Positions 26,895 to 30,156 of a DNA stretch of 31,822 nt are shown here, one piece after another. The stretch lies in IMG/VR virus record IMGVR_UViG_3300022198_000611, positions 1-31,822 of that record. The stretch is one strand, 5' to 3'. The first letter of the stretch is position 1. Each line of letters begins with the position of its first letter. The stretch is from a virus. The notes under the pieces are model-generated. The model was given only the letters and a program-made list of their open reading frames with translations, had not been told where the DNA came from and did not search any database. The translations under genes were made by a program, and so were the position numbers.

Positions 26895-27025
26895 CTTGCG
26901 TATATACGAATGGATAATGCGGCAGAAATGTCACATAAGATCAAATACTTGCGCAAAATGCAAAAGAATCATTGACAGAGGATAGGCTGGCGCCTGCCAC
27001 ACAAGGGGTTTGATACAAGCATGTA

Positions 27026-27037
27026 ATGTTATAACAT
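27026..27037. promoter_or_regulatory. Perfect 12-bp palindrome, operator-like
   Basis: ATGTTATAACAT is a perfect dyad in a non-coding stretch. It has the size of a repressor half-site pair. No promoter elements could be assigned around it, so its use as an operator is speculative. Confidence 0.35.
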
Positions 27038-27114
27038 AACACCCAACAGCCATGCAAAACCGCAAAGCAAACGCTTGTCACCATTGCAGAAATGCAAAGC
27101 GCCCATAGGGCCAC

Positions 27115-27199
27115 GCTAGGGCACACTACAGGCGCGAAACAGTTTTGGGCTAGGGCTAACTACAGAACAGGCTAGGGCCAGTCTAGGGGCCACTACAGG
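27115..27199. repeat. Three-copy GCTAGGGC ... CTACAG array
   Basis: GCTAGGGC occurs at 27115-27122, 27149-27156 and 27171-27178, with CTACAG at 27126, 27160 and 27193 (spacing 34 and 33). The array ends just beyond the stop codon of the last cassette gene. Such spaced direct repeats resemble protein-binding iterons. Confidence 0.55.
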
Positions 27200-27203
27200 C
27201 GCC

Positions 27204-27377
27204 CTAATAATACATACCCGTCATATCTTGGATATCGTCAAATAGGTCTGCCAATACCTTGACGCAATGCGACTCGTCATTAGGGTTTAGCCCTAACTGT
27301 TCAATCAATTCGATTAGGTCTGCAATGCGTGAGTCAATCTTGGCCATATGCTTTGCGAATTGCGTTTGCTTATCCAT
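27204..27377 (-). CDS. Small helical protein, unknown
   Basis: A 57-residue frame starting MDKQTQFAKHMAKIDSRIAD, then LIELIEQLGLNPND, and ending in an acidic segment DLFDDIQDMTGMYY. It is probably two helices. The ATG follows the previous stop by one base, and a GGGGG run 9 bases upstream (inside the preceding gene) can serve as RBS, so it is likely translationally coupled. It is the last gene of the minus-strand cassette. No family is recognised. Confidence 0.6.
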   Translation of the reverse strand: MDKQTQFAKHMAKIDSRIADLIELIEQLGLNPNDESHCVKVLADLFDDIQDMTGMYY

Positions 27378-27378
27378 G

Positions 27379-27687
27379 TTACCAAGCCCCCATTTTAGTT
27401 AATGCTACTCTATCACGGTCAAGGTTAGGTAATACGCTGGCCCGTTCTGCAGCAAAAGCAAAGCATGCATCCTTGAAAGAGTCGTCCGCCATGCCGTGAA
27501 ATACTAGGCTAAACAGGCTTACTTTATACGGGTTTGCGTAATACATAAGGGCTTGCCACATTACCGCAGCGTCTGTGCCCATTGGTGGGCATTTTGCCTT
27601 AAGCATTCCCTTATTCTTGCCACGTTGTGCAATGGCCCCATCCAGTGCCAGCAAAAGGCGTTGTTCTAATTGATCCGAATATTCCAT
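27379..27687 (-). CDS. Unknown cassette protein
   Basis: A 102-residue mostly helical protein: MEYSDQLEQRLLLALDGAIA, a basic GKNKGMLKAKCPPMG stretch, an aromatic part (VMWQALMYYANPYKVSLFSL) and a charged C-terminus (NLDRDRVALTKMGAW). I do not recognise a family. The start is supported by the cassette-type RBS AGGAGTC, six bases, ATG. It lies between the Cys-rich protein gene and the 57-residue gene. Composition is soluble, with no signal peptide. Confidence 0.65.
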   Translation of the reverse strand: MEYSDQLEQRLLLALDGAIAQRGKNKGMLKAKCPPMGTDAAVMWQALMYYANPYKVSLFSLVFHGMADDSFKDACFAFAAERASVLPNLDRDRVALTKMGAW

Positions 27688-27708
27688 TATTCCGACTCCT
27701 TGTTTGAA

Positions 27709-28443
27709 TTAATCCACAATCGCTGCAGCGGCACGCTTGCTTGTGCCATGGGCCACAATGGCCACAGACTTGCCCTTTACACTAGCGCCACCGCAAAGCT
27801 TGCAAGCTGCACATTGAACACGTTCCCCCGCTTCCTTGCTTGCCGGGCACAATACTTCCTTGCCCTTGATCAGCGAGTCCAGTGACTTGATCACACGGAA
27901 CGTTCTTTCGCCACGTTGCCAAGCTTGTTCCGCTTGTGTGGCATTGTCAGCGCTTGTCATTACCAAATTTGGCATTGTGTTTGCTTGGTGTGTGTATGCA
28001 GTGACATATTCCGCCCCGCTTGTCAGACTAGCCCACACGTCGGCTGGCACAGCCATAGGATCGCCATAGCTACCAAGCCGCACACCCCGCAATAAACCGA
28101 TTGCCCGGATTGCGTCGTGCCCGCTTGCGACCGGATACTTGCCCGCCTTATAGGCTTTATAAATACCATTCGGGGCGAACAATAAATTGACATAGCAAGT
28201 GCGGTTTTTGGCCCAGCCTGTTGCCTTGTTAGTGGGCTGGCCTTTATGCGGGCAATCGCCGCAAATTGCCTTGTCTGCACCCGTTCGGCTTGCGGTTATA
28301 GGGTCAATGTCACGGTGAAGAATCCATGTTTGAACCATAGAACCTGTTTTCCGGTTGTCGCTTTTGACTTGGGCAATGGCCACAATGGGTGCCCCATCAA
28401 TCAGGCTTGGGCCTTCATAAATTACAAAAGATTTGCTTGCCAT
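27709..28443 (-). CDS. Cys-rich protein with two putative metal-binding clusters (DUF7227-like)
   Basis: A 244-residue protein opening MASKSFVIYEGPSLIDGAPI. The segment NRKTGSMVQTWILHRDIDPI is followed by cluster one, C61-x2-C64-P-H66 (CGDCPHKG), plus C83. Near the C-terminus is C199 in CPASKEAGERVQ, then C211-x2-C214-x2-C217 (CAACKLCGG). Seven Cys and a nearby His suggest Zn or Fe-S binding. Similar proteins occur on phages and plasmids of alphaproteobacteria without a known function; replication or nucleic-acid binding has been assumed for neighbours. RBS is the cassette type (AGGAGTC-TGAATA-ATG). It is by far the largest gene of the cassette. Function is unknown. Confidence 0.75.
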   Translation of the reverse strand: MASKSFVIYEGPSLIDGAPIVAIAQVKSDNRKTGSMVQTWILHRDIDPITASRTGADKAICGDCPHKGQPTNKATGWAKNRTCYVNLLFAPNGIYKAYKAGKYPVASGHDAIRAIGLLRGVRLGSYGDPMAVPADVWASLTSGAEYVTAYTHQANTMPNLVMTSADNATQAEQAWQRGERTFRVIKSLDSLIKGKEVLCPASKEAGERVQCAACKLCGGASVKGKSVAIVAHGTSKRAAAAIVD

Positions 28444-28628
28444 TATTCAGACTCCTTAATTTCTGTTTTTGCGTATTTTAGTGCTGTTTTAAGACAATAC
28501 ATTGCCGTATCTGGCATATCTAGCTCTAAACAGATTAAGGCGTCATAAAGAAAATATTGCCAGTCTGTTTTTAAACCTGCCGTTTTGCGCTCTTGTTGCA
28601 ATACTGAAAATTGCTCGAAAGTTAACAT
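28443..28628 (-). CDS. Small helical protein, unknown
   Basis: A 61-residue protein: MLTFEQFSVLQQERKTAGLK, then TDWQYFLYDALICLELDMPD and a Lys/Glu-rich tail (ALKYAKTEIKESE). The central part resembles a TPR-like helix pair, but too short for a firm call. It starts on the previous stop (TAATG) with RBS AGGAGTC-GGAATA. Its own last codons (AAG GAG TCT GAA TAA) form the RBS of the next gene. Hypothetical. Confidence 0.65.
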   Translation of the reverse strand: MLTFEQFSVLQQERKTAGLKTDWQYFLYDALICLELDMPDTAMYCLKTALKYAKTEIKESE

Positions 28629-28765
28629 TATTCCGACTCCTTGTTTGCGATATGATACCCAAAATTACCGAAATATAGATTTACCCCGCCTGTTTCCGAC
28701 TCATAAATTGCAAAGGTATGGGCAAAGGCGCAAGCGGCAATAATGCCAAGAAATACAGTTTTCAT
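28628..28765 (-). CDS. Small exported protein or lipoprotein
   Basis: A 45-residue frame too short for standard ORF lists. It starts MKTVFLGIIAACAFAHTFAI, a clear signal peptide: Lys at 2, hydrophobic core and an Ala-rich end. It contains IAAC at residues 9-12, which could be a lipobox, though the n-region is very short. The remaining 25 residues (ESETGGVNLYFGNFGYHIAN, then KESE) are aromatic and acidic. RBS AGGAGTC-TACACA-ATG supports translation. The stop overlaps the next start as TAATG, and codons K-E-S-E encode the next RBS. No family is recognised. Periplasmic or outer-face location is inferred. Confidence 0.6.
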   Translation of the reverse strand: MKTVFLGIIAACAFAHTFAIYESETGGVNLYFGNFGYHIANKESE

Positions 28766-28944
28766 TGTGTAGACTCCTTATTACCGTTTCTAGCGTCAAA
28801 AATTATGCGTGTTTCACTTTCTGATATTTCCTCGCAACGAGTCCGATACCCTTTATCAATTGCCCAATTTGTCGCTTTGCATGTGCCAGCATAATTTGAG
28901 CAAACATGAATTAACAAACCGTTTGCATAAACAGCGTATTTCAT
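28762..28944 (-). CDS. Small protein, unknown
   Basis: A 60-residue protein: MKYAVYANGLLIHVCSNYAG, then TCKATNWAIDKGYRTRCEEI and a polar C-terminus ending GNKESTQ. Three Cys (15, 22, 37) and a beta-alpha-beta-like pattern are visible. No family is recognised; it may be a small soluble domain. The RBS is AGGAGTC-GACAAA-ATG. Its last codons (AAG GAG TCT) form the RBS of the following gene, with the TGA stop overlapping that gene's ATG. Confidence 0.6.
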   Translation of the reverse strand: MKYAVYANGLLIHVCSNYAGTCKATNWAIDKGYRTRCEEISESETRIIFDARNGNKESTQ

Positions 28945-28956
28945 TTTGTCGACTCC

Positions 28957-29040
28957 TCATAGGTTAGAAAAGTTTTCAGTTAGGAAAGCGGCAACGGCGA
29001 TTGCCAAGATAAAAGCGCCGATAAATACGAAAAAAGACAT
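28957..29040 (-). CDS. 27-residue single-membrane-segment microprotein
   Basis: A short frame MSFFVFIGAFILAIAVAAFL followed by TENFSNL: one hydrophobic helix over nearly its full length. Translation is supported by RBS AGGAGTC and a six-base spacer before ATG at 29040; an ATG at 29045 is only 1 base from the RBS core and gives a frame with no membrane pattern. It ends 12 bases before the next start, its TGA immediately abutting the next RBS. Such microproteins can act as holin regulators or in exclusion, but no function is shown. Confidence 0.5.
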   Translation of the reverse strand: MSFFVFIGAFILAIAVAAFLTENFSNL

Positions 29041-29052
29041 TGCATTGACTCC

Positions 29053-29280
29053 TTAAACGTCAAACCGGATTGTGTATTCAATCCAATTTACAGTTTCATA
29101 AGACGCAAGGTCCAACATAAGCTTGCCCAATTCAGAAACACGGCATTCAGTAACAACAAGGCCATTGTGAACATAAGTAAAAAACCCTGTTAAATTACTG
29201 ATGGTCAAAGCCAGCTCTTTTTGTTGCCACTCTTCGCCGAAATTTGCCACGGCTAGGTATGCTTTCGTGTTGTGTGTCAT
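29053..29280 (-). CDS. First gene of the cassette, unknown 75-residue protein
   Basis: Started at ATG 29280 because AAGGAAA lies about 6 bases upstream; an earlier in-frame ATG at 29355 has no RBS and covers the putative promoter. The protein runs MTHNTKAYLAVANFGEEWQQ, then KELALTISNLTGFFTYVHNG and a C-terminal YETVNWIEYTIRFDV. It looks like a small alpha-beta protein. No family is recognised. It is the only gene here besides the last one that does not use the AGGAGTC RBS. Confidence 0.6.
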   Translation of the reverse strand: MTHNTKAYLAVANFGEEWQQKELALTISNLTGFFTYVHNGLVVTECRVSELGKLMLDLASYETVNWIEYTIRFDV

Positions 29281-29319
29281 TTTCGTTTTCCTTGTGTGTT
29301 TGTGTTGTCGTCTAAACGT

Positions 29320-29348
29320 AGCTAAGCAATGTTCGGAAATGTTGTCAA
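29320..29348 (-). promoter_or_regulatory. Candidate promoter of the minus-strand cassette
   Basis: On the minus strand TTGACA (29348-29343) matches the sigma-70 -35 exactly. Seventeen bases later lies TTAGCT (29325-29320), a weak -10. Transcription would begin about 30 bases before the first cassette ATG. The -10 is poor, so this is a tentative call. Confidence 0.4.
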
Positions 29349-29358
29349 TCCCCATTTT

Positions 29359-29374
29359 TTGATAAATTGATCAA
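29359..29374. promoter_or_regulatory. TTGAT-N6-ATCAA dyad upstream of the cassette promoter
   Basis: TTGAT (29359-29363) and ATCAA (29370-29374) form an inverted repeat with six bases between, overlapping a 10-bp palindrome ATTGATCAAT. It lies 11 bases upstream of the candidate -35 of the cassette, a place suited to an activator or repressor. Confidence 0.4.
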
Positions 29375-29562
29375 TATTTCACGTTTGAAACAATTTGTGA
29401 TATGTTAAGGGAACAAAACGTAAACAAAACAGATATGCAGAATTTGCATAGCAGCTATGACTTGACAAGTCGCTTTTGTGGTCTGGCACGCTTAACCAAA
29501 GCGAACGAATCAACGTGGGAATCGCCTTATGCGAGAACAATACCATTGCGCCTGGACCTATC

Positions 29563-29596
29563 CAAAAGTAGGGGCGGCCTGTCTCAAAAGTAGGGG
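29563..29596 (+). repeat. Two copies of CAAAAGTAGGGG, 22 bases apart
   Basis: CAAAAGTAGGGG occurs at 29563-29574 and again at 29585-29596 at the left edge of the iteron region. Spacing of 22 bases is two helical turns. The role is unknown. Confidence 0.55.
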
Positions 29597-29650
29597 GTTG
29601 ACAAACCGGGGGCGAATCGGATTTACTGAAGAGTCGAGTCGGATTCATAC

Positions 29651-29976
29651 CTATACGAAAGAGAGTTTGACATACTTTCGAGACAGAATCACTACCCGAA
29701 TCGGTAGGCTATGCGTTTGCACCTGTCAATCTATGCTCTTGCGCTCTTGCCTATACTTTCGAGACAGAATCATATCCGAATCGGTAGGTCTATACCAATG
29801 AACCTGTCAACCTATACGAAAGAGAGCTTGACAATACTTTTGATACCGAATCATACCCGAATGAACTTTGACCTATACGAAAGAGAGCTTGACACATACG
29901 AACGAGACAGAATCATACCCAAAAGAGTTCGCATTTATACGAAAGAGAGCTTGACACATACTTTTGAGACCGAATC
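29651..29976 (+). repeat. Iteron-like direct repeats carrying CTATACGAAAGAGAG and TTGACA
   Basis: The unit CTATACGAAAGAGAG plus (C/T)TTGACA occurs at 29651-29672, 29812-29833, 29873-29894 and 29935-29956 (one mismatch in the last). The last three are 61-62 bases apart. Each is followed by a second element close to TACTTTTGAGACCGAATCA, which also stands alone at 29752-29771. TTGACA is preserved in every full copy, like a -35 element, but no good -10 follows at 16-18 bases. Binding sites for a replication initiator or regulator, or tandem atypical promoters, are the two readings. Confidence 0.75.
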
Positions 29977-30016
29977 ACCTACTTTCGTATGGGTGACCCC
30001 AAACTTTCGTGTAGGT

Positions 30017-30144
30017 GACCCCCTCCAGTGGAAATATAGACCCCCCTCCAGTGGAAATTAAGGCCCCTCCGTGGGAATTTAGGGTTGACCCCACCAGTGG
30101 AAAATGCCAGACTGATTCCAAGTTGACCCCCACCGATGGAAATA
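30017..30144 (+). repeat. Five copies of a GACCCC...CCAGTGGAAA motif
   Basis: Near-repeats at 30017-30036, 30039-30059, 30062-30080 (degenerate), 30084-30105 and 30123-30144 share a run of C, then CC(A)GTGGAAA. The first four start 22-24 bases apart. The last ends directly before the RBS of the first plus-strand gene. A similar copy is at 26758-26776 by the late operon and a partial one at 31391-31408. The close spacing on one face of the helix suggests protein binding. Confidence 0.7.
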
Positions 30145-30156
30145 AGGAGAACCACA

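Follow-up and report, generated by a model that had tools for sequence, protein, structure and literature searches.

The stretch of virus DNA analysed here (the window, a 31.8-kb virus record and probably a fragment) was depleted in GANTC, the CcrM site, over most of its length and packed with it in an island covering early genes and their control region. The island was conserved across a group of phages, selection acted on GANTC itself, and the site lay within conserved predicted promoters. These patterns suggest that early transcription is geared to host CcrM methylation, probably via GcrA and σ70-RNA polymerase; judging from sequence, we put the probability of this reading at about 0.6. Methylation of the sites, the use of GcrA and the timing of expression are the parts that we infer.

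A leftward late operon is followed in the window by a small leftward early operon, a divergent control region and a rightward early operon, the last of which includes the cell wall hydrolase and thymidylate synthase region (Table 1). The portal protein was 83% identical to that of roseophage CRP-6, and terminase, portal, cell wall hydrolase and thymidylate synthase stood in the CRP-6 order; by these sequence marks, the window belongs to a CRP-6-type siphophage. The preliminary description of this DNA held that a host outside Alphaproteobacteria would speak against a role of CcrM; the phage instead groups with CRP-6, an isolate on the Rhodobacteraceae strain FZCC0042. CcrM and GcrA have a common conservation pattern (PMC3973325) and are conserved in most Alphaproteobacteria (PMC3973325, PMC2877005), which is the basis for expecting both in the host. 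Alphaproteobacterial genomes as a whole contain fewer GANTC than expected, and their intergenic regions more (PMC3973325).

Table 1. Features of the window, with positions counted from its first base.
Feature	Position	Strand	Details and basis
GANTC island, leftward early operon and divergent control region	26966-30118		28 sites; exact counts, shuffles, same island in relatives
Densest core, divergent intergenic control region	29507-29976		13 GANTC, mostly CGAATCR/GAATCA
Predicted rightward early promoter	30085-30118	+	TTGACC 30085-30090; 17-bp spacer with CCAGTGGAAA; CAGACT 30108-30113; abutting GATTC 30114-30118; layout common to CRP-6 and relatives
Five TTGACA units	29598-29976	+	Starts 29598, 29667, 29828, 29889, 29951; repeat families D1/D2
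Imperfect tandem repeats ACCTATACGAAAGAGAGCTTGACA / ACATACTTTCGAGACAGAATCAC	29649-29978		Spacing 62-81 bp
CCASTGGAAA repeats	30015-30149	+	One within promoter spacer
GANTC fused to Shine-Dalgarno of leftward early genes, AAGGAGTC-n-ATG	27694-29051	-	At 27694, 28450, 28635, 28772, 28951, 29047
DUF7227 protein (PF23872, phrog_2554)	27709-28443	-	Early gene within island
Late structural operon: tail, portal, large and small terminase	145-26426	-	GANTC-depleted

Exact counting returned all 13 GANTC sites listed earlier for the core, at identical starts, and the reported eleven in about 360 bases fell within 29614-29976. The density quoted for the first 10.4 kb, one site per 580 bases, was too high: 15 sites were found there, or one per ~690. 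Comparison of the window-wide count with a composition-matched null, proposed earlier as a check, put the cluster far above chance. The densest 470 bp held 13 GANTC and the maximum in 100 Markov-1 shuffles was 8, with a window total of 60 GANTC versus ~100 in such shuffles. Equal density elsewhere had been named as grounds for dropping the cluster; the remaining genome was much sparser, at about one GANTC per 896 bases. A share of the excess had been ascribed to repeats, and 7 of the 13 sites indeed fell in local repeats (29686, 29767, 29848, 29910 and 29972 in D1; 29698 and 29778 in D8). Collapsed to 8 independent sites, the cluster was still improbable (Poisson P ~1.5e-4, compared with 6e-9 uncollapsed).

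The core was thus real, but the island proved wider than first noted and included the leftward early operon, with 28 sites in 3.15 kb against 32 in the other 28.7 kb. The ratio between island and rest (7.6x) was the highest among the 24 pentamers that combine G, A, T and C with N; outside the island GANTC was the rarest of these 24 equal-composition pentamers in the window. Base composition as the cause of the cluster was ruled out by the pentamer and Markov controls. The late operon contained 25 GANTC versus 60 by synonymous-codon shuffle (z -6.4). Control-region sites were mostly CGAATCR or GAATCA, and many sites of the leftward operon were joined to Shine-Dalgarno sequences. We read the cluster as the centre of a probable methylation island over the early region.

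The same arrangement was found in CRP-6, where the last 2.5 kb, comprising the left early operon and the divergent intergenic region, held 38 GANTC, with a shuffle maximum of 23 for the densest 2.5 kb. The remaining 42 kb held 31, a density 20 times lower. Five further long records of the group had one island each (33, 30, 37, 25 and 34 sites per 2.5 kb), and in CRP-6 and these five GANTC ranked first of the 24 pentamers for island enrichment. The left genes of CRP-6 contained 21 coding GANTC versus 10.8 by synonymous-codon shuffle (z 5.3), and its late genes 11 versus 61 (z -9.1). Just ahead of the start codon, GANTC was present in 3 of the 4 genes of the CRP-6 left operon and in 0 of the 65 others. 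The window's own left early coding sequences showed no enrichment (6 GANTC versus 5.3 by synonymous shuffle). Protein-coding constraint as the cause is excluded by synonymous shuffles for CRP-6 and for phages DSS3P8 and RcXuper, discussed below, and not for the window's early genes.

The enrichment went beyond the repeats, since GANTC itself was enriched and conserved throughout the CRP-6 group. All four central bases were used, in mixture. In the shared DUF7227 gene, CRP-6 had 15 sites and its relative L016 had 8, none of them common by position, and all codon phases were used. The repeats also differed by phage: TATACGAAAGAGAGCTTGACA units in the window, GTTGCAAGAATGTCAC units in CRP-6 and tandem TGATTCGTT units in L016. 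The window's ACCTATACGAAAGAGAGCTTGACA / ACATACTTTCGAGACAGAATCAC repeats were absent from CRP-6 and L016, which carry other repeats at that place. Because sites turn over, all central bases and codon phases occur and the repeats differ, selection acts on GANTC itself; its target seems, from these comparisons, to be the pentamer and no single longer motif. An RNA motif in the Shine-Dalgarno sites (GGAGUC) was considered and would leave the intergenic sites and the coding sites with all central bases unexplained. DUF7227 was likewise rejected as the cause of the island: the island persists in relatives for which no DUF7227 was detected, and the gene also occurs in Mycobacterium and Klebsiella phages. 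The window's DUF7227 product is a cysteine-rich early protein that is also present in Mycobacterium, Gordonia and Klebsiella phages, and one cyanobacterial locus turned up in a genome-contig scan.

The start sites of CRP-6-type promoters discussed here are predicted ones. The consensus of the predicted rightward early promoter was TTGACC-N17-(T/C)AGA(G/C)T, with GATTC immediately after it and a CCASTGGAAA-like repeat in the spacer. This layout was kept in the window, in CRP-6 (44853) and in records L003, L004, L011, L013, L014, L016, L017 and L035; L015 had a TTGACA variant. The CCASTGGAAA / CCGATGGAAA repeats, which precede the first rightward early gene in the window as in CRP-6 (L001, 44769-44878), were conserved in the group and are likely, by their sequence and placement, an operator or iteron. 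The abutting GATTC places GANTC in the core promoter, and among non-redundant σ70-like matches 26 of 37 in islands had it between -34 and +6, versus 15 of 102 outside; the GANTC density of the islands alone would give ~39% of such matches a site.

Each of the five TTGACA units had GAATC 16-21 nt downstream and a poor -10 match, and the units may be tandem promoters with weak -10 elements. The preliminary description had called such units iterons; the repeats are present, yet they resemble tandem TTGACA promoter units at least as much. GcrA is reported to activate through the motif YGAKTCG/TGATTCG (PMC7987155). YGAKTCG fitted only about one-fifth to one-third of island sites, and the promoter-abutting site of the window, TGATTCC, does not fit it. 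The offset histogram from TTGAC in the CRP-6 group had only modest peaks at the promoter registers. We must also note that many island sites lay in coding sequence or Shine-Dalgarno sites, for which a promoter-only model does not account. A separate strong and conserved TTGACA-N17-TATAAT-like promoter pointed towards the terminase genes in several records (L081 3933, L008 3871, L011 7197, L113 381, L131 7647), with GATTCGG at about +2 to +5; it was not seen at the matching place in the window.

GANTC-rich early regions also occurred in an unrelated group of ~147-kb phages, DSS3P8 (Ruegeria), RcXuper (Rhodobacter) and MD18 (Phaeobacter). Many early genes of this group were preceded by a repeated promoter, TTG(C/A)NN-N17-(N)ACAAA-like and ending in TTACCGAAACG. 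In DSS3P8 and RcXuper, 28 of 31 non-redundant promoters carried GANTC (11/14 and 17/17), mostly as YGATTCG and almost only at registers of about -31 to -29, -22 to -20 and -5, where +1 is assumed to be the A of ACCGAAACG, an assumption that sets the absolute numbering only. The MD18 promoters used the same registers. In Caulobacter, GANTC between -35 and -10 defines a timed promoter class, with positions of -29 in ctrA P1 and -24 in podJ P2 (PMC4287350). The DUF7227 genes of DSS3P8 and RcXuper exceeded synonymous shuffles in GANTC (z 4.3 and 5.0). In most early promoters of these two phages (L052-L054), a palindromic GCTTSAAGC element lay upstream of the -35; from its position, it is likely the operator of some regulator.

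In MD18 (MT270409), positions 108,218-108,592 encode a GcrA-family protein (E=9.5e-19) that the record lists as hypothetical; the adjacent gene is labelled DNA polymerase III epsilon subunit. Searches for the GcrA, N6_N4_Mtase and D12 methylase families gave no match in DSS3P8, RcXuper or CRP-6-type records. A phage-encoded methylase or GcrA was thus set aside for the CRP-6-type group, and with no CcrM-type/D12 methylase or GcrA in these phages, host factors would be needed. GcrA binds both σ region 2 and methylated promoters (review PMC7403470).

An infection that used the island in this way might run as follows. With GANTC purged from most of the phage genome, and kept and added at early transcription starts and neighbouring early genes, the island sites would be methylated by host CcrM. 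Host σ70-RNA polymerase, aided by host GcrA, would then read early promoters that combine a good -35 with a weak -10 and have GANTC beside the -10, within the spacer or at the edge of the -35. Early expression could track the methylation state of the host, and so could its shut-off when replication leaves the sites hemimethylated. As a sequence pattern, the promoter part of this scheme has good support. Coding DNA and ribosome-binding sites are also dense in GANTC, which is real in most relatives and may reflect a region-wide methylation state, such as a replication-coupled switch. Tentatively, and with somewhat less than even confidence, we extend the model to at least two unrelated Rhodobacteraceae phage groups, whose immediate-early transcription would depend on cell-cycle methylation by the host: early promoters would need CcrM-methylated GANTC and GcrA, and GANTC-packed early DNA would form a methylation-state domain acting as a replication-coupled early switch.

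The preliminary description proposed that the phage senses methylation to time transcription or replication. Transcription fits better than replication because conserved promoter elements carry GANTC, and because the unrelated group sets GANTC at fixed promoter registers and MD18 encodes GcrA. The island could nonetheless be mainly a replication or hemimethylation device, that is, an origin or initiation control region in which GANTC reports the replication state and promoter sites are incidental. Dense sites with shifting positions in coding DNA, short direct repeats resembling iterons, the sign change of the cumulative GC skew of CRP-6 at the control region, and the enrichment of GANTC around the chromosomal origin in Rhodobacterales (PMC9836097) all speak for such a device. 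The skew, however, is confounded by divergent transcription, no initiator protein was found among the early genes scanned in the window, and the sites of DSS3P8, RcXuper and MD18 stand at fixed registers before many separate genes; we regard this explanation as unlikely. It is also hard to treat the excess as a by-product of one repeated protein-binding motif, an iteron or operator containing GAATC. The repeat-borne sites of the core and the tandem units of L016 would agree with that, but GANTC persists while the repeats change between relatives, its central base varies, and Shine-Dalgarno sequences, coding DNA and terminators all contain sites, so this explanation is rejected as scarcely credible.

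An absence of any positive role, with GANTC purged through restriction or methylation and the early region merely escaping, would agree with the clear depletion in all roseophages tested except the N4-like DSS3phi2. RDJL Phi 1 (NC_015466, L175-L178) gave the extreme case, a near-complete purge with 1 GANTC in 62.7 kb versus ~353 expected. The island nevertheless exceeds random expectation, and in CRP-6 also the synonymous shuffles. No island was found in CRP-4, CRP-7, CRP-118, CRP-212, CRP-403, SIO1, RDJL1 or DSS3phi2, nor in Caulobacter phages S2B and Cr30 or Bradyrhizobium phage BDU-MI-1, and most of these island-free phages were GANTC-depleted. Since depletion is common and many depleted phages are without an island, depletion alone leaves none and the island is a separate, positive feature, which makes mere escape quite improbable. 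A general trait of phages in CcrM hosts was ruled out as well, as most other alphaproteobacterial phages sampled had no island. HTVC019P (NC_020483, L183-L185) carried six GANTC over its 42 kb, and a stretch of ~1 kb (35754-36782) accounted for five. A methylation-dependent packaging signal adjoining the terminase genes, like the Dam sites in P1 pac, would suit CRP-6-type phages, whose island is at most a few kb away from the small terminase gene; in DSS3P8 and RcXuper the island lies 4-7 kb from terminase, on early promoters, and we hold such a signal to be highly unlikely. Least probable of all is a decoy that titrates host CcrM or GcrA and disturbs the host cell cycle. The density of the sites and their lack of a preferred position or central base would fit it, and phage copy number could raise the effective number of sites, but 30-40 extra sites are few compared with the thousands per host chromosome (7,800 in Brevundimonas subvibrioides, PMC7987155).

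A previous survey of alphaproteobacterial phages (PMC9437464) found CtrA sites to be asymmetrically placed and reported no positional asymmetry for GcrA sites. By a measure of this kind, the positional entropy of YGAKTCG was 0.42 in CRP-6 (random 0.94), 0.69 in DSS3P8 (0.89) and 0.77 in RcXuper (0.92). Phage use of the CcrM/GcrA system has so far been speculated upon from phage-encoded GcrA and CcrM. The position of the island of these marine CRP-6-type phages over the switch region of the earliest genes suggests that the phage reads the host methylation or cell-cycle system to start infection. The islands provide a signal that is both strong and conserved, and they give exact promoter sites for direct tests in cultured pairs: CRP-6 and its host, DSS3P8/Ruegeria pomeroyi, RcXuper/Rhodobacter capsulatus and MD18/Phaeobacter. 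Early control regions of alphaproteobacterial phages could also be located in sequence data through this contrast, in which GANTC is purged from the genome and packed into the early region.

The predicted phage promoters resemble the GcrA/CcrM σ70 promoters of Caulobacter (ctrA P1, podJ P2, mipZ), in which the core promoter contains or adjoins GANTC, in many cases as YGAKTCG, and as here the host class is known to have CcrM and GcrA. They differ in belonging to phage early regions with many sites per region, and in the additional Shine-Dalgarno and coding sites; their methylation and GcrA dependence are presumed. The CtrA-site clusters of alphaproteobacterial phages (PMC9437464) likewise concentrate sites of a host cell-cycle regulator in part of the genome, although here it is the CcrM site that is concentrated, and in other phage groups. 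Phage phiCbK encodes a GcrA homologue, as does MD18 of the DSS3P8 group; unlike phiCbK, the CRP-6-type phages, in which as in the window no GcrA was found, would rely on that of the host. Sites of host methylation also control a phage process in the Dam-site clusters of phage P1 (pac, oriR) and in the mom promoter of Mu. The islands described here are distinguished from these by the methylase and its site, CcrM and GANTC, by their location in the early region, and by the purge of the site elsewhere in the genome.
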